Source: Minisyncoccota bacterium (GTDB taxonomy: Bacteria; Patescibacteriota; Minisyncoccia; Minisyncoccales; CG1-02-41-26). Taken from it: a stretch of DNA of 40,213 nucleotides. The notes under the pieces were generated by a model. The model worked only from the letters and a program-made list of their open reading frames with translations, had not been told where the DNA came from and did no database searches. The stretch covers positions 1 to 40,213 of the forward strand of contig JAQULB010000001.1 of assembly GCA_028718785.1 (NCBI GenBank). Reading direction: 5' to 3'. Below are positions 3,991 to 40,213 of this stretch, piece by piece. The position numbers and the translations under genes are program-made. Position 1 is the stretch's first letter. Each line of letters opens with the position of its first letter.

Positions 3991-4299
3991 TTATTTTTTA
4001 TCTGGCAGTTTGGCTTTGTCTAAAATTATTTTGTAAAGCCCCTCCAAAAAATCTCCCCCAGCATACCCAATTATAAAGCTTAAAGCCGCAGTAAATGTTC
4101 CGTTTAATGTTAAACCAACTTCTTTTATTGATATTGAAGCCATTAACCCCACAACCCCAGATATAAAAGACATACCCAAAAAATATTTTAAATCAAACGG
4201 AACGCTTTTATAAGAAAACTGGTGTTTTACAAAACCAACCAATCCCCTAACCACTCCCCCAAAAAATCCAGCTAATAAAAGAAAAAAATATATTGACAT
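3991..4299 (-). CDS. hypothetical membrane protein
   Basis: Hydrophobic 102-aa ORF; start codon abuts repeat element A. Confidence 0.6.
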   Translation of the reverse strand: MSIYFFLLLAGFFGGVVRGLVGFVKHQFSYKSVPFDLKYFLGMSFISGVVGLMASISIKEVGLTLNGTFTAALSFIIGYAGGDFLEGLYKIILDKAKLPDKK

Positions 4300-4705
4300 G
4301 TTAGTAATTCTTATTTGAGCGATGAGCTCTGCGAGTTGCGAAAATTAGAAGTACTTACACCCTGTGAAGTAAGATTTGAGGCGACTTTTTAAAAATCTAT
4401 TACCGTAAGATGTTTTTAAATATTTTTCTCTATGCATAGCATCTTTACGGTCAAGGCATGCTTCAGAATATATAAGCTGGAACGGCCTTCTATTTTTGGT
4501 CGAGGAGACACGCCCTTTTTGATGCTCCTCAAATCTTAATTTTAAATTTTCAGTATAACCAATATAGAGCTTCTTATCTTTTTCAGAAAGCAAAACATAA
4601 ATATAGAAATACATGCTCTTTGCTGAAAATTTAAAATTACTTCACGGGGTAAATCCTCCGTAAGCTTGAACTTCACCTGATAGCTCGTTCTCGCTAACGG
4701 ATTAT
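4300..4705 (-). mobile_element. Three-hairpin intergenic element, copy A, carrying a GIY-YIG ORF
   Basis: Arms ccctgtgaagtaa (4360-4372) and ttacttcacgggg (4637-4649) flank the ORF; P1/P3-type side stems; fills the gap between genes. Confidence 0.7.
4345..4614 (-). CDS. GIY-YIG nuclease family protein (single domain)
   Basis: YIYVLLSEKDKKLYIGYTENLKLRFEEHQKG ... YSEACLDRKDAMHREKYLKTSYG. Confidence 0.92.
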   Translation of the reverse strand: MYFYIYVLLSEKDKKLYIGYTENLKLRFEEHQKGRVSSTKNRRPFQLIYSEACLDRKDAMHREKYLKTSYGNRFLKSRLKSYFTGCKYF

Positions 4706-4807
4706 TTACTTAATTAACCCAAGCGTGCTTGAAAAACCTTTTGTTAAAAACAAAACACCCACAATAAAAAGCGCAAGCACTATTAAAACATCCAAAAATT
4801 TCATCAT
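4706..4807 (-). CDS. 33-aa small membrane protein MMKFLDVLIVLALFIVGVLFLTKGFSSTLGLIK
   Basis: Hand-translated; sits exactly between elements A and B. Confidence 0.5.
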   Translation of the reverse strand: MMKFLDVLIVLALFIVGVLFLTKGFSSTLGLIK

Positions 4808-5209
4808 GATAGAAGTCGTTAATGAGGAGCGAAGCGACAAATTTACGAATTCTTACACCCTGTGAAGTAAGATTTGAGGCGACTTTTTAAAAATCTATTA
4901 CCGTAAGATGTTTTTAAATATTTTTCTCTATGCATAGCATCTTTACGGTCAAGGCATGCTTCAGAATATATAAGCTGGAACGGCCTTCTATTTTTGGTCG
5001 AGGAGACACGCCCTTTTTGATGCTCCTCAAATCTTAATTTTAAATTTTCAGTATAACCAATATAGAGCTTCTTATCTTTTTCAGAAAGCAAAACATAAAT
5101 ATAGAAATACATGCTCTTTGCTGAAAATTTAAAATTACTTCACGGGGTAAATCCTCCGTAAATTTCAAGCTTCGGCTATCGCCTCGCTTTCAATAACGGA
5201 TTATTTATT
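4808..5209 (-). mobile_element. Three-hairpin intergenic element, copy B, carrying an identical GIY-YIG ORF
   Basis: 310 bp identical by eye to copy A (4354-4663 vs 4852-5161), with divergent flanking P1/P3 stems. Confidence 0.7.
4843..5112 (-). CDS. GIY-YIG nuclease family protein (second copy)
   Basis: Identical protein to 4345-4614 except the last two residues (KNS vs KYF). Confidence 0.92.
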   Translation of the reverse strand: MYFYIYVLLSEKDKKLYIGYTENLKLRFEEHQKGRVSSTKNRRPFQLIYSEACLDRKDAMHREKYLKTSYGNRFLKSRLKSYFTGCKNS

Positions 5210-9450: not shown

Positions 9451-10278
9451 TTACTGTTCATTAATATATTCATTTATCCAATCCATAATTTTCAAAAATA
9501 ATTTTTTATCAGAGTATACGATATGTACTAAGCCATGTTCCATTTTATGCTTTTTATTCTCTGAAAAATTCTCTCTCACATATGGCTTAATAAATTGTGT
9601 TAAAGGAATATTCGTAGTTTCTTGCCAATATTTCTTTAAATAGTCAATGTCTTGATTGGTATAACAATAAAGATGAACCCTCAAACGTTGCTCACTTATT
9701 CCACAAATTTCCCTTAAAAATCTTAAGAAAATCTTAACCATTTCTGGATCGCTATTAGCAAAATTAACCGAAGTTGCTCGTCGTTGACCATCACGATACA
9801 CTTCTTTTCCTCCCTCTGCCCAATACAACATAATACCAGCAACTTTCAATTTTTCTTCTTTTTTGCTTAAGTTTTTCTTAATATTAAAAGATAACTGTTT
9901 TCTCTCAAAAATAAAGTTGTTAGTTTGGGCAATTGGTCTTCTTTCTATACCATATTTCCTCATAAAATCATAGACACTCGAAACAGACCTCCCAAAAAAT
10001 TGCCCAACTTCTTGAGCACTGAATCCCTTTTCTAAATACAAATCTCTCACTTGCTTAAGCTCAAAACTTTTACCATTTAAAAATGGCGGGATTATTTTTC
10101 CGCTATTTCGCAAGCGCCAATATCCGTAATAAGAAGCCTCACTTCTTGAACGCTTTTGAATACTATGTTTCTCTATCCAGTAATCAACTTTATCTTCGCT
10201 ACATCCCAACCTAATGGCAACTTCTTTCATTGATATCCCTGTTTTATATAATTTTTCTAATTGCTCTTTTTCAAGCAT
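9451..10278 (-). CDS. HTH-containing, LAGLIDADG-like putative homing endonuclease/DNA-binding protein
   Basis: Two HTH-like repeats (MKEVAIRLGCSEDKVDYWIEKHSI; SAQEVGQFFGRSVSSVYDFMRKYGI), then AGIMLYWAEGGK and NSDPEMVKIFLRFLREICGI. Confidence 0.55.
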   Translation of the reverse strand: MLEKEQLEKLYKTGISMKEVAIRLGCSEDKVDYWIEKHSIQKRSRSEASYYGYWRLRNSGKIIPPFLNGKSFELKQVRDLYLEKGFSAQEVGQFFGRSVSSVYDFMRKYGIERRPIAQTNNFIFERKQLSFNIKKNLSKKEEKLKVAGIMLYWAEGGKEVYRDGQRRATSVNFANSDPEMVKIFLRFLREICGISEQRLRVHLYCYTNQDIDYLKKYWQETTNIPLTQFIKPYVRENFSENKKHKMEHGLVHIVYSDKKLFLKIMDWINEYINEQ

Positions 10279-11164: not shown

Positions 11165-11196
11165 AGAACATATAACATAAAACTTATAACGTTATT
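11159..11196. repeat. Heptameric tandem repeat CATAGAA-CATATAA-CATAAAA-CTTATAA-CGTTATT
   Basis: Read directly; 7-nt periodicity. Confidence 0.7.
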
Positions 11197-11551
11197 GCAA
11201 ATTCTTTATAATACCCCACAGCATTGCTCCAACTTTCTCTGCTTTTTCAATTGCTTGTTTATAATCCCGGATAGATAAATATTTCTCTACTAATGAGAAA
11301 TGTAAGAGGCATTTACTTTCTTTTAGTGATCCATAAGAAATCTCTAAAAAATTTTTGTATACTTTTTCTTTTTCTCTATTTCTCGCGTGCCCTTCAATAT
11401 AATTTAGAATAATCGAAAGCGCCGATCTTCTTATTTGTGAAACAACCCCAAATAGATCGTCCCTTGGGAATTTTCTTGTTAATCTGTAAAACAAATGAGC
11501 ATAACTATCCATTTTATTCTTTAAACTTTCGTGAAAAGTTTCAGGTTTCAT
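11192..11551 (-). CDS. Four-helix-bundle protein (23S rRNA IVS / Avd-like family)
   Basis: LTRKFPRDDLFGVVSQIRRSALSIILNYIEGHARN pattern typical of the family. Confidence 0.88.
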   Translation of the reverse strand: MKPETFHESLKNKMDSYAHLFYRLTRKFPRDDLFGVVSQIRRSALSIILNYIEGHARNREKEKVYKNFLEISYGSLKESKCLLHFSLVEKYLSIRDYKQAIEKAEKVGAMLWGIIKNLQ

Positions 11552-16076: not shown

Positions 16077-16128
16077 AGAACATAATTTATAAAATAATGT
16101 TCTACGTTCTACGGCCTACGTTGTGGGT
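16053..16128. repeat. Heptameric repeats (CGTATAA/CATAGAA, then CTACGTT/CTACGGC) with inverted symmetry between rnc and nusB
   Basis: Direct reading; the second half contains the nusB stop codon. Confidence 0.7.
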
Positions 16129-16559
16129 TTAATCTCTTCTTCATGGGGCATTTCATTGTAAATAGCGCCCAAAACTCCGTTAACAAACTTTCCTGAACTT
16201 GGCCCGCCAAAACTTTTAGCTAATTCAATTGCTTCGTTGATTGCCACTTTTGGTGGCACTTGAGAAGTGTCTTCATACAAAAGCTCAAAAAGTCCAATTC
16301 TAAGAACATTTCTATCAATAATGCTTAATTGATCAATTGGTCGCTCGGGCGCTGAAGTTTCAATAACGCTGTCTAATTTTTCTAAATTATCAATAATGCC
16401 TTTGGTTAAACTTCGAGCAAAGTCCTGCTCGTCAAACCCGCCTCCAAACTCTTGCATATTTCGCTCCAAAACCGAAAAAATTTCGGGTTTTTTTTGGTAA
16501 AAATCCCACTCGTATAATGATTGCAAAACTATTGAGCGAGCAATATGTCTTGAGGCCAT
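16116..16559 (-). CDS. nusB: Transcription antitermination factor NusB
   Basis: [52 protein letters not shown]. Confidence 0.95.
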
Positions 16560-16737
16560 GTTAGAAATTGTTAATTGAATGGCGAATTTATGAGCCGTGA
16601 AATTTACAAGTTCTTACGCCCTGTGAAGTAGAAATTTGATCTGCAAATTTCTGTTTTAAATTTTTAGCAAAAATTTCAAATTACTTCACGGGGTTTAAGG
16701 TTTTGTAAAGCTTGGGCTTCGCCCTCGCTAACAAACC
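16560..16737 (-). repeat. Three-hairpin intergenic element, copy C (no ORF)
   Basis: ccctgtgaagta...tacttcacgggg with two AT-rich inner hairpins; flanking P1/P3 stems. Confidence 0.7.
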
Positions 16738-17037
16738 CTAAAACTTCTTCTTAGAGAGTTCTTCCAGTGTCATTGGTTTTTCCTTTTTCTCGGATTTTTG
16801 GTCTTTTTCGGTTTCTTTAATATCTTTTTCCCTTAATTTCCTATCTTTTTTCTCTAATTTAGCTAAAACATTGATAACCTCTTTGCCTTTATAAAATCCG
16901 CAGTTTGGACAAACACTATGTAGCTTTCTTGGCTTGGCGCATTTTGGGCAAGCACCCAAAGTTGTCTCAGCAATAAACTGATGCATTCTTCTCTTTTTTA
17001 CCCTTGATTTTGTTAGATGTCTTTTTGGAACACTCAT
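16738..17037 (-). CDS. rpmF: 50S ribosomal protein L32 with charged C-terminal extension
   Basis: MSVPKRHLTKSRVKKRRMHQ...CPKCAKPRKLHSVCPNCGFYKGKEV. Confidence 0.95.
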   Translation of the reverse strand: MSVPKRHLTKSRVKKRRMHQFIAETTLGACPKCAKPRKLHSVCPNCGFYKGKEVINVLAKLEKKDRKLREKDIKETEKDQKSEKKEKPMTLEELSKKKF

Positions 17038-17190
17038 GCGATTAGAAATTGTTAATTGAATGGCGAACGATTAGCGAGCCGTGAAATTTACAAGTTCTTC
17101 GTCCAGTTAAATGAAATACTTCAAATTTCATTTAACTGGATACCTTGTTTAACTGGGGTAGGTCCCCTGCTTCACTAACGCATTAGATAG
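17038..17190 (-). repeat. Three-hairpin intergenic element, copy D (variant)
   Basis: P3 end matches copy C (tgaaatttacaagttctt, ttagaaattgttaattgaatggcgaa); central stem ccagttaaatgaaat/atttcatttaactgg. Confidence 0.6.
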
Positions 17191-17208
17191 AATAGCAAAA
17201 CCTCCCTA

Positions 17209-24001: not shown

Positions 24002-25804
24002 ATGAATAACATTGAAACAATTCGCCACTCATTAAGCCATATTATGGCCATGGCGGTTAAAAACTTATATCCCAATACAAAATTTGGCATTGGCCCGGCC
24101 ATTGATAATGGCTTTTATTATGATTTTGACTTGCCACGCCAAAGCTTTGAAGGAGCGAAGGCGGGTTTGTCCATTGACGACTTGCCAAAAATTGAAAAAG
24201 AAATGCAAGCCATTATTAAAAGCAACATTGATTTTATAAAAAAAGAAATATTTCAAGACGAAGCAGAAAAACTCTTTGCTAACCAGCCCTACAAACTTGA
24301 GCTTGTCAAAGAATTAACTTCCACCGGTAAGACCGGTGTAACTATCTACACAAGCGGAGATTTTACAGACCTGTGTGCTGGACCCCATATTGAAAACACC
24401 AAAGAGATTAATCCCCTATCGTTTAAGTTAACCAAAGTGGCTGGGGCTTATTGGAAGGGAGATGAAAAAAACAAAATGCTCACCCGTATTTACGGATTAG
24501 CTTTTGCCACAGAAACCGAATTAACTGATTATTTAAAAATATTAGAAGAAGCAGAGAAACGTGACCACCGCAAACTAGGTCGTGAGCTTGATTTATTTTT
24601 AATTGACCCAACCGTTGGCATGGGTTTGGCAATGTGGCAACCAAAAGGGGCAATGTTGTGGCGAATTATGGAAGATTTTTGGTATCAAGAACACTTAAAA
24701 AATGGCTACGAGTTAGTAAGAACACCCCATATTGGCAGCCGAAAACTTTGGGAAACATCTGGCCATTGGGGATTTTACAATGAAAGTATGTATCCCCCGT
24801 TAGAAGTAAGTCAAACATTAAAAGAAGCTCAAGAGGGCAAAAAATCAGAAATAAAAGAAGAGTATTTGTTAAAACCAATGAACTGCCCCTTTCATGTAAG
24901 CATTTACAATTCCAAACCGCGAAGCTACCGGGATTTGCCAATTAGGTGGGCGGAATGTGGCACTGTTTATAGATATGAAAAATCCGGTGAATTATCTGGA
25001 TTAACCAGAGTACGGGGCTTTACTCAAGACGATGCCCACATTATTTGCGCTAAAACTCAGGTAAAAGACGAACTAAAAAGAGTGGCTGATTTTATTATTT
25101 TTATTCTCAACACTTTTGGATTTAAAGAGTTTAATGTTTATTTGTCCTTAAGAGACCCAAATAACAAAGAAAAATACGCAGGCAATGACGAGGGCTGGGA
25201 GTTTACCCAAAAAGTGCTTGAAGAAGTGGCAAAAGAACAAGGCCTAAATTACAAAAAAGAAGAGGGTGAAGCGGCTTTTTATGGACCAAAGCTTGACTAT
25301 AAAATAAAAGATTGTCTTGGCCGAGAATGGCAATGTTCCACTTTGCAGTTTGATTTTAACTTGCCCGAAAGATTTGATATGACCTTTATTAACCAAAAAG
25401 GAGAAAAAGAAAGGCCTTTCGTTTTGCACCGAGCTTTGTTTGGCTCTTTTGAAAGGTTTATTGGGGTTTTAATTGAGCATTACGCTGGCTCTTTCCCTGT
25501 GTGGTTATCCCCCACTCAAGCCATTGTTTTGCCAATTGGGGAAAGCCATCAAACATACGGCCAAGAAGTTTTAAAAACCTTAAAACAAAATAACATCAGA
25601 GCCCAAATAAATTTAAACAATGACACCATTGGCAAAAAAATCCGCGAGTCAGAAATGCAAAAAATACCCTATATTTTGGTGGTTGGAGATAAAGAAATTA
25701 AAGCTAATTCTGTAGCTGTTCGATCGCGCAATGAGGACCTTGGCGTAATGACAACTGAAAAATTTATTGATACAATTAAACAAAAAGTCGAAACCAAAAA
25801 ATAA
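24002..25804 (+). CDS. thrS: Threonyl-tRNA synthetase
   Basis: GPAIDNGFYYDFDL; LKPMNCPFHVSIY; RVRGFTQDDAHI; HRALFGSFERF. Confidence 0.97.
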   Translation: MNNIETIRHSLSHIMAMAVKNLYPNTKFGIGPAIDNGFYYDFDLPRQSFEGAKAGLSIDDLPKIEKEMQAIIKSNIDFIKKEIFQDEAEKLFANQPYKLELVKELTSTGKTGVTIYTSGDFTDLCAGPHIENTKEINPLSFKLTKVAGAYWKGDEKNKMLTRIYGLAFATETELTDYLKILEEAEKRDHRKLGRELDLFLIDPTVGMGLAMWQPKGAMLWRIMEDFWYQEHLKNGYELVRTPHIGSRKLWETSGHWGFYNESMYPPLEVSQTLKEAQEGKKSEIKEEYLLKPMNCPFHVSIYNSKPRSYRDLPIRWAECGTVYRYEKSGELSGLTRVRGFTQDDAHIICAKTQVKDELKRVADFIIFILNTFGFKEFNVYLSLRDPNNKEKYAGNDEGWEFTQKVLEEVAKEQGLNYKKEEGEAAFYGPKLDYKIKDCLGREWQCSTLQFDFNLPERFDMTFINQKGEKERPFVLHRALFGSFERFIGVLIEHYAGSFPVWLSPTQAIVLPIGESHQTYGQEVLKTLKQNNIRAQINLNNDTIGKKIRESEMQKIPYILVVGDKEIKANSVAVRSRNEDLGVMTTEKFIDTIKQKVETKK

Positions 25805-25997
25805 GTAATCCGTTATTGAAAGCGAGCCGTAAGGCGAAGCTTGAAATTTACGGAGGACTTACCCCGTGGAGTATAAATTTGCAGAGCAAATTTATATTTT
25901 AATTTTTTTGCAAAAAAATTAAAATTACTCCACAGGGTGTAAGAACTCGTAAATTCACTCGTGGCCAATCGCCACTCATTCATTAACGATTTCTAAC
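25805..25997 (+). repeat. Three-hairpin intergenic element, copy E (no ORF, opposite orientation)
   Basis: Reverse complement closely matches copy B ends; central stem ccccgtggagta/tactccacaggg carries a compensatory change. Confidence 0.75.
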
Positions 25998-36562: not shown

Positions 36563-36751
36563 ATTAGAAATTCTTAATTGAGCAAATGCCTATAATTTTT
36601 TTATGTGCATTTGCGAAATTTAGAAGTTTTTACACCCCGTTAAATAATTTTAAATTTTGCAAAATTTAAAATTAAAATTTGTACTCAAATTTTATTTAAC
36701 GGGGTTAGGTATCTGTAATCACTCGGGCTAATCGCCTTCGTGAACAGCTAC
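36563..36751 (-). repeat. Three-hairpin intergenic element, copy F (no ORF)
   Basis: ccccgttaaataa/ttatttaacgggg central stem; P1 TTAGGTAgCTGT/ACAGaTACCTAA. Confidence 0.7.
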
Positions 36752-38269
36752 CTAATCGTGCCAACCATAAAGATCCTTTTTTGCTTCTATTCTTTCTAAT
36801 ATTGGTTGGGGTTCTTGGATTATTTTTTTAAACAAAGGCGCGCCCGGCACTTTCTCTTTTTCTACTGTTGGTTCTTGTTGAGATAAAGCAACATCGCCGT
36901 CTTGCTCATAACTAATCTGATTTTTTAAACAAAGTTCGGCTTTTTGCAATTCCCTGCCCAAATACATTGCATGCTCCACTGTTTGTTCAAAATCACCCAC
37001 CATTTGCATTTGCCCAATTTTATAACAAATATCCAAGGCCGAGTCCCCAATCACCTTTTGGGTTGTTTTGCCATTTTGCAAATGTTCCACTATAATTTTT
37101 TTTTGAGCGGGTCGTAAGTAAACCACAAAAAAGCCGTTTGGATCCTCTTTCCAATCAAAAGGTCCTTTGGCCTCAACTTCTTCTACTTTGTCAAGATTAA
37201 TTTTTTCTCCTTTGTATGGTTCTTTATTTTTCATCAAACAGTTCTCAACCGCCATCATTACAACAGACGAATCAGTTTCTCCGTTTAAATTTATGGGTTC
37301 AATTTGCGCCCTAAATCTTTCAATAATTTCAAAATCCAAACCTTTTAACTGGGGCATATTGCCAACAGCGCCTATAATATTCTTGTCTTTATCAACCCCA
37401 TTTTGCTTCAATGACATAAACGCCTGCTCCACAAAATGCCCTTTTGAGGGCTTGCCACAAAGAATTAAAAACCGAATATTGGGATTGGCAACCACATTTT
37501 GAATAATTTTTTCAATGCCAATATTTTCTGTAACACACTTGCCACAAATTGCCACCTTTTCCATATCTAATATAATGCCTTCCACTGTGGCATTAGTACA
37601 AACAGCCACAGATGAATTTTTGTTGCCCACATAAAACCTACCCTCAACCTCGGGCCAGTTTTCTAAATTAACCTGTTCGCTTCTTTGGGTTTCTTTAGTT
37701 TTAAACTCCTCGCTTATCTTGCTCGCCACCGCTGTTTCTTGCACAGCATATTTTGCGTCTTTTTTGGCTTGATAGGTTTTTTCACAAGGACTAGAAAGAG
37801 TTTCAAAAGTTAAAGCGCAAATTCTCATTCCAGAGTATAAAACAACTGGCATTACCCCTAAATTGCCAAGCTCCATTACTGGCTTGCCATTCCAGCCCGG
37901 GTCAAACCGAGCGGCTGTTGAGTGAACCACCACTCCCAATCGACCCAAAGAACTTCGGCCATCTAATCGACCCATTAAATCATTGTCAATAAAAACATCC
38001 TCCATTGTTACTGCCAATATAAACTCGCCGGGCTGTAAAATAAACGGACTGTCAGGAGCAATAACAATATCCTCCATAATATCATCAACATTGAACGGCC
38101 TTTTTAAGTCAACATAGGGATAACGGGACTGTTTAAAAACCTTAAACGAATTTCCCAATCGTAAATCTAAAGAACAGGGTCCAAGCTGTTTTTCAAGATC
38201 TGGAGCAGGACTTATTTTTATTTTTCCCCTGTTGATATACTCTTTAATGTCTTTGTCGGATAAAATCAT
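36752..38269 (-). CDS. dcd: dCTP deaminase fused to an MtrA-like / DUF4346-like C-terminal region
   Basis: N-term GPCSLDLRLGN, GRLDGRSSLGRLGVVVHSTAARFDPGWNG; C-term NWPEVEGRFYVGNKNSSVAVCT...ICGKCVTENIGIEKIIQNVVANPNIRFLILCGKPSKGH. Confidence 0.85.
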   Translation of the reverse strand: MILSDKDIKEYINRGKIKISPAPDLEKQLGPCSLDLRLGNSFKVFKQSRYPYVDLKRPFNVDDIMEDIVIAPDSPFILQPGEFILAVTMEDVFIDNDLMGRLDGRSSLGRLGVVVHSTAARFDPGWNGKPVMELGNLGVMPVVLYSGMRICALTFETLSSPCEKTYQAKKDAKYAVQETAVASKISEEFKTKETQRSEQVNLENWPEVEGRFYVGNKNSSVAVCTNATVEGIILDMEKVAICGKCVTENIGIEKIIQNVVANPNIRFLILCGKPSKGHFVEQAFMSLKQNGVDKDKNIIGAVGNMPQLKGLDFEIIERFRAQIEPINLNGETDSSVVMMAVENCLMKNKEPYKGEKINLDKVEEVEAKGPFDWKEDPNGFFVVYLRPAQKKIIVEHLQNGKTTQKVIGDSALDICYKIGQMQMVGDFEQTVEHAMYLGRELQKAELCLKNQISYEQDGDVALSQQEPTVEKEKVPGAPLFKKIIQEPQPILERIEAKKDLYGWHD

Positions 38270-39773: not shown

Positions 39774-40009
39774 ATTAGTAATTCTTAATGAATGAAATGA
39801 ATTTAGAATTTCTTATACCCCGTTAAACGCGACCTCAAGGAGCTGTTTAACTGGAGTTTGCTTATATTTCTATCCATACCCCAGTGAAGTAAAATTTGAG
39901 TACAAATTTTAATTTTAAATTTTAATAAATTGTTCAGCAATTTTTAAAATTTAAAATTACTTCACGGGGTTAAGGTTTTCTACGGCTCGCTTTGCCTCGC
40001 CAAGAAACC
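39774..40009 (-). repeat. Three-hairpin intergenic element, copy G (composite)
   Basis: Extra hairpin ccccgttaaac..gtttaactgg plus complete gtgaagtaaaatttg...aaattacttcacgggg unit. Confidence 0.65.
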
Positions 40010-40213
40010 CTAAACTTTTTTCACTTGTAGCGAATCCACTTCCACGGGCGTGTCTCGACCAAAAATATTAACTAACACTTTAAGCTTTCCTCTTTGTTCG
40101 TCAATTTCAGAAACCTTGCCTTCAAAATCCTTAAACGGTCCGTCAGTAATTTTTACCAAAGCCCCAATAACAAAATCAACCGTGTATTGAGGGTCTTCTG
40201 CTCCGCTTCTCTT
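40010..40213 (-). CDS. nusG: Transcription termination/antitermination protein NusG (3' part, truncated by window edge)
   Basis: Minus-strand translation ...DFVIGALVKITDGPFKDFEGKVSEIDEQRGKLKVLVNIFGRDTPVEVDSLQVKKV*. Confidence 0.92.
   Translation of the reverse strand, partial: KRSGAEDPQYTVDFVIGALVKITDGPFKDFEGKVSEIDEQRGKLKVLVNIFGRDTPVEVDSLQVKKV

Follow-up and report, generated by a model that had tools for sequence, protein, structure and literature searches.

The GIY-YIG genes found here belong, in the explanation that we consider probable but for which there is no experiment, to a mobile DNA element of about 290 bases, which is bounded by terminal inverted repeats (TIRs) of about 14 bp, encodes one single-domain GIY-YIG nuclease driving its movement, and is accompanied by MITE-like copies devoid of the gene (solos). 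The stretch of DNA that was analysed (the window, 40,213 nucleotides) comes from an 841-kb Patescibacteria genome, the family of which includes a Gribaldobacteria MAG (L023/G002); the genomes compared are MAGs. An earlier note made on this DNA had placed the ORF in a mobile structured repeat, and had named two observations that would refute this interpretation: an ORF always present at its two sites by vertical inheritance only, or a lack of enrichment of the ORF within the repeat genome-wide. Neither was encountered, and the interpretation as a whole is supported by our data. The copies carried by the window and the parts of element A are the following.

4301..4708 (-): element A, ORF-bearing, without counterpart at the orthologous junction in G022 and G001
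4345..4614 (-): GIY-YIG ORF of A, 89 aa (Pfam PF01541, 1.1e-17; dN/dS against relatives 0.04-0.15)
4359..4370 (-): P2 3' arm (TIR) of A, ACTTCACAGGGT in ORF sense
4639..4650 (-): P2 5' arm (TIR) of A, ACCCCGTGAAGT in ORF sense
4627..4638 (-): P2b 5' arm of A, which is the ORF leader (partner 4538-4549)
4538..4549 (-): P2b 3' arm of A, within the coding sequence, covarying through synonymous changes in relatives
4527..4537 (-): P2a 5' arm of A, within the coding sequence (11/11 pairs, reached by 0/5000 synonymous randomisations)
4371..4381 (-): P2a 3' arm of A, at the ORF end
4651..4708 (-): P3 hairpin of A, starting at a TAA stop codon
4301..4358 (-): P1 hairpin of A, adjoining the ATG at 4299
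4808..5208 (-): element B, ORF-bearing, inner 310 nt the same as in A, missing in G022
4843..5112 (-): GIY-YIG ORF of B, 89 aa (Pfam 9.2e-18)
16560..16740 (-): solo C, between genes 16738-17037 and 16116-16559; G022 empty, G023 solo
25802..25997 (+), opposite strand: solo D; G022 empty, P1/P3 shared and P2 different in G000, G023 and G002
36563..36754 (-): solo E
39774..40014 (-): solo F, with an additional hairpin arm at about 39817-39878
17042..17200 (-): diverged copy G (P1 and a short hairpin)

The position of the GIY-YIG ORFs inside the central hairpin of the repeat, as first proposed, is confirmed by the match to PF01541 (E 1e-17) and by the P2 arms that surround both ORFs (4359-4372/4637-4650 and 4857-4870/5135-5148), which are 14 nt long and 93% complementary. 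The inner unit of A and B, previously put at about 310 bp, is identical over exactly 310 nt (4354-4663 and 4852-5161) while the outer P1 and P3 are unlike, as had been noticed; gene conversion or assembly could be the cause of these identical tandem copies. The arm motif is present in 13 copies in the window against 1.3 expected, an excess of about 10 fold that was matched in 0/100 shuffles, and the existence of ORF-less copies was verified for C to F, G being diverged. In the gene direction, element A is arranged as P3, P2 with the ORF, P1 and the ATG of gene 3991-4299, and the solos of the window genus follow the same order (P3 hairpin, P2, P1 hairpin, ATG). The P1 end adjoins the start codon as TCTAAC(N0-2)ATG in 40 of 51 solos, and in the copies of the window P3 starts with the stop codon lying upstream, except in B where it comes after a promoter-like TATAAT. 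Beside the P2 of copy F, the extra arm at 39817-39878 (CTCCAGTTAAAC..GTTTAACGGGG) gives a four-way branched structure; similar arms are present in other G000 and G023 copies and account for the CCCAGT arms.

The P2 of the ORF-bearing form is more than a pair of repeats around a gene. In type A, the leader is base-paired with the codons of the NLKL region, and the 3' end with those of the LRFEE region; these two pairings form with the TIR stem a three-way junction without unpaired bases, which is retained in the solos. Over 17 sequences, 98.2% of the junction cells are paired and 10 of the 35 pairs show two-sided changes; the double-change cells amount to 27, compared with 7.5 after shuffling (reached in 0/500) and 0-2 in slid controls. 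Several of the compensations are synonymous, namely TTA>TTG (L008, L025, L099), AAA>AAG (L027) and AGA>CGA (L098). The three-way junction is also recovered by ssDNA folding (z -5.8), and when all ORFs are considered an internal pairing of at least 10 occurs in 47/55 TIR elements vs 8/82 others (p 5e-20). Other subfamilies have the same layout with unrelated sequences, e.g., GGAAACGCTTCAG/CTGAAGCGTTTCC or ATGTTCTTCTA/TAGAAGAACAT. Under synonymous randomisation of the single sequence, none of 5000 trials reached the 11/11 pairs of P2a, whereas P2b pairing alone was not significant (585/5000, the codons being AT-rich), so that the support for P2b rests on covariation. Folding of the coding strand with the element ends into a three-way junction is thus a prediction that covariation supports well; the two-sided changes indicate a nucleic-acid structure, without telling whether RNA or ssDNA is the recognised form.

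The mobility of the element, inferred from the comparison of genomes, is likewise well supported. Within one genus, the L015 locus is empty in G022, holds a solo in G000 and is ORF-bearing in G023, and A, B, C and D are all missing from G022, which excludes an ORF fixed at orthologous sites by vertical descent. Four insertions interrupt genes, in L031 (ORF6N), L033 (MazE/AbrB-like) and L040 and L043 (23S_rRNA_IVP), the host frame continuing across the flanks; the latter two occupy the same SN^AEG position of 23S_rRNA_IVP genes, with one codon replaced. In L103 the interrupted gene is that of RNase P RNA; the element occupies the P3 position there, with the 5' strand of P1/P2 on one side and the conserved GAGGAAAGUCC on the other (the Rfam match to RNase P appeared only in E-value mode). 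Most other insertions adjoin an ATG start codon, the right end being at a median of 3 nt from the ATG, with 36 cases where only a co-directional gene is adjacent and 0 where only an opposite one is. Direct repeats of at least 3 bp flank 11 of the 24 type-B TIR elements (e.g., TATG/TATG, ATGA/ATGA, AGAA/AGAA) where permutation gives 5.9 (at most 11 in 1000 permutations); this excess is only about twofold, and the permutation null is inflated by the shared ATG context. For type A, to which the window copies belong, target duplication is unsupported (3/36 vs 1.2). The 23S_rRNA_IVP family is the host gene in L040, L043 and possibly L121, and the window itself contains a 23S_rRNA_IVP/bAvd-like four-helix gene at 11192-11551 (-).

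These insertion sites bear on two other explanations. A freestanding homing endonuclease would cut an uninterrupted site and be copied by homologous repair, the hairpins being passive boundaries or tolerated RNA stem-loops and the solos decayed copies. The entry into the 23S_rRNA_IVP gene at the same site in two lineages and the inserts in RNase P RNA and, in the literature, in rRNA (PMC11270868) would fit such a cycle, as would a weak match of 17/20 members to the group I intron endonuclease model TIGR01453 and the similarity to the I-TevI fold. However, the insertions are scattered over unrelated intergenic sites and not confined to cognate ones (the IVP gene is the one recurrent site), the solos exceed 30 copies, the TIRs and internal arms are conserved through covariation, and PMC11270868 places the GIY-YIG rRNA insertions outside a homing context; we therefore judge homing unlikely. 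Alternatively, the repeat could be a structured RNA element, either a 5' UTR regulator or an intron/IVS-like RNA processed from transcripts, which carries the GIY-YIG gene and spreads with it. The location directly before start codons and co-directional with the gene, the host frames that continue once the insert is removed and the strong RNA folds are in agreement with this hypothesis, but the orientation of P2 with respect to P1 and the gene is not fixed (24 vs 16), splicing is of no benefit to the majority of copies, which are intergenic, and there is no Rfam match, group I/II introns included. An RNA element appears very improbable to us. The Rfam search of the element gave only tRNA/rRNA matches, with neither a group I/II intron nor a HEARO RNA.

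Returning to the mobile DNA element, the solos give further evidence for it. With the two-arm pattern, 34 solos were counted in the window genome, 30 in the congener G023 and 3 in G002 of another genus, and none in 21 other genomes of the family; the reversed-pattern control gave 0. P2, P2a and P2b of the solos are as in the ORF form, with the loops removed, and a partial-deletion derivative was found in another lineage (G470); this derivative came from the comparison within the L138 genus, where the site gave no clean empty form. From this anatomy we conclude that the solos are internal-deletion (MITE-like) derivatives of the ORF-bearing form, sharing its TIRs. The suggestion that the ORF-less loci were solo or empty-site forms is thus right as to the solos, and the empty-site alternative is not retained. 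Within the family, every genome that holds solos also has a TIR-bracketed ORF (solos in 3/5 genomes with the ORF vs 0/19 without, p 0.005), and phylum-wide 15 of the 17 genomes in which solos of the CCCGTTAGA type were found have the ORF family, the overall proportion being 154/381 (p 5e-5). A 230-260-nt two-arm pattern is matched in 4 of 247 genomes, all 4 of which carry the ORF there. The enrichment of the ORF within the repeat genome-wide, on which the earlier interpretation depended, is therefore found.

In the P1 of the solos, positions 10 and 11 covary (paired in 34 and 33 of 35, respectively, vs about 18 after shuffling), and near-invariant mismatches A.A, C.T and A.A stand exactly 5 bp apart (e.g., 25939-25997). 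In the P2 stem, covariation is seen at positions 7, 8 and 10, and position 4 is held mismatched, being Watson-Crick in only 3/51 vs 20.5 expected, so that the two ends remain distinguishable. Since P2 is seen in both orientations and since the same P1/P3 hold three different P2s at the orthologous site D in G000, G023 and G002, P2 behaves as a module. The architecture first described is to be corrected in that P1/P3 are not needed elsewhere (the in-gene copies have only P2) and in that P2 is a three-way junction made partly of coding sequence. P1/P3 nevertheless seem to belong to the unit in the solo-rich genus, an observation that an element made of P2 alone leaves unexplained.

It could also be argued that the hairpin repeats are moved in trans by another enzyme, a RAYT-like Y1 or a DDE transposase, the GIY-YIG gene being a hitchhiker in the loop. 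Y1 transposases are present in all three genomes of the genus, and P1, P2 and P3 with their conserved mismatches resemble REP/attC-type hairpins. Yet G022, with three Y1 matches, has no exact-pattern solo, the Y1 genes have no copy of the element within 1.5 kb, and phylum-wide the enzyme inside the TIRs is a GIY-YIG protein, which the solos track; we regard this possibility as quite unlikely. The analogy with RAYT/REP that had been drawn for this repeat holds functionally, there being many dispersed hairpins per genome, but it does not extend to the enzyme, no Y1 gene being found in the hairpin unit or within 1.5 kb. RAYT/REP(IN) and IS200/IS605 systems share with the element one small enzyme gene and many non-autonomous extragenic hairpins with conserved mismatches, and differ from it by their enzyme, which is HUH/Y1 and not GIY-YIG, and by the TIRs and the internal three-way junction that characterise the element.

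The enzyme itself meets the definition of the GIY-YIG superfamily by its motifs, catalytic Arg and Glu, and fold. In NCBIfam and Pfam, the element protein matched no DDE, HUH, Ser or Tyr transposase family, and the only Pfam matches were GIY-YIG and T5orf172; PADLOC gave weak matches only (E 1e-3). Across 20 homologues the catalytic positions, R27 and E63 among them, do not vary, and the ORF is under purifying selection (dN/dS 0.04-0.18), which indicates that the protein matters. The AlphaFold2 model (pLDDT 90) has UPF0213 BH0048 as best fold match, followed by Slx1, and the sequence search agrees (1zg2, E 1e-8 by sequence and 8e-5 by fold; Slx1, 3e-3 by fold). Slx1 is a branched-DNA nuclease. 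UPF0213/YhbQ and Slx1 are the nearest solved sequences and folds, but they are cellular proteins, not element-encoded. Two properties count against the explanation proposed here: the protein is a single domain with no known DNA-binding module, and the ORF copy number is low (1-3 per genome).

Among the homologues, a TIR-like inverted repeat (score of at least 10, p<=.05) was detected at 63 of 138 ORF places, and for a score of at least 11 the mean shuffle p is 0.0009. TIR-bracketed homologues occur in many Patescibacteria groups, in one Myxococcota MAG and in one Marinimicrobia MAG, and their repeats covary. P2-like TIRs of other genomes include ACCCYGTKAAATAA, ACCCCGTTAGAG.., ATCCCGTTAGAG.., CCCCGTAGAG.., CCCAGTAATAC.. 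and CCCGCC.., among others; the outermost bases of the element's TIRs are CCC..GGG. TIR status is clustered on the tree (22 label changes vs 54 shuffled). The clade of the window ORF (95/89) contains its own family together with Nomura-, Sungi-, Portnoy-, Moran- and Staskawiczbacteria, the tree mixes phyla, and the members of a single host family are scattered over different subclades; this mixed clade and this scatter argue for transfer between lineages. In plasmid and phage collections, no homologue was found at the limits used.

We found no description of a TIR-bounded GIY-YIG element in the literature, preprints and most subscription papers being outside the scope of the search. The closest prior art consists of GIY-YIG ORFs carried by rRNA insertions of CPR bacteria, insertions without a match to any intron (PMC11270868, J Bacteriol 2024). 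That study also describes many short ORF-less rRNA insertions of unknown nature and places most rRNA insertions at stem-loop tops or bases. The host group, the GIY-YIG ORF and the unlikeness to group I/II introns are shared with our element; in contrast, the insertions are rRNA-restricted, and no TIRs, dispersed copies, start-codon targeting or coding-strand structure are described in the passages considered. A GIY-YIG protein is also listed among Patescibacteria-donated genes (PMC12455944).

Freestanding GIY-YIG homing endonucleases (Seg, I-TevI type) have in common with it the superfamily and a small intergenic selfish gene, whereas the element has dispersed sites, TIRs, MITE-like derivatives and no separate DNA-binding domain. 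The solos are short, TIR-bearing, intergenic and of internal-deletion origin, as are bacterial MITEs, but their parental enzyme is a GIY-YIG nuclease and their internal hairpin arms are the parent's coding sequence. IscB/HEARO (OMEGA) also has a nuclease gene within a structured element; here, RuvC/HNH is absent, no separate guide RNA was seen, and the structure consists of the ends and the ORF itself. The element resembles an insertion sequence or DNA transposon in its TIRs at both ends and its presence or absence at orthologous sites, but it has no known transposase family. To our knowledge, no known transposase family is GIY-YIG.

That the nuclease performs the movement is inferred from its recurrent presence inside the unit, the co-occurrence of solos and ORF, and a branched substrate that fits its fold relatives; the chemistry of movement is inferred too. 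We propose that the nuclease, Slx1-related in fold, would recognise the three-way junction or an extruded hairpin and would cut the hairpin or junction base and/or the target close to a start codon (TATG/ATGA, in some subfamilies frequently duplicated), that host repair would complete the insertion, and that solos could be mobilised in trans. Harm may be limited by landing just before the ATG and by the insert being held as a stem-loop. The most specific form of this proposal is possible, and on it we lean slightly towards doubt: the single-domain GIY-YIG protein (about 85 aa) would act as transposase for an autonomous transposon that ranks among the smallest (about 290 bp) and is aimed at start codons, and would define a class of transposases distinct from DDE, HUH, Ser and Tyr; the coding strand would also be the recognition element, the ORF arms and both ends giving a three-way junction of the Slx1-like substrate class. 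If true, this is a new kind of prokaryotic mobile element with a GIY-YIG nuclease as sole enzyme, and a gene whose codons are under constraint to fold the very DNA or RNA on which the encoded protein may act. It would account for many GIY-YIG genes and hairpin repeats of Patescibacteria that so far lack an explanation, and perhaps for the uncharacterised short insertions of their rRNA genes, and would offer a compact element targeting start codons that lends itself to testing.

Related GIY-YIG ORFs without TIRs lie directly beside tRNA genes (L106, L107, L108, L111, L113, L117, L041, L045 and L160), and most of them belong to separate clades in the tree. Some of these loci have partial tRNA duplicates, and L160 has a direct repeat, GTTCCCGACCA; they are probably a separate tRNA-targeting mobile lineage. 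In the window, a gene for an HTH-containing protein (9451-10278, -) adjoins two tRNA genes.
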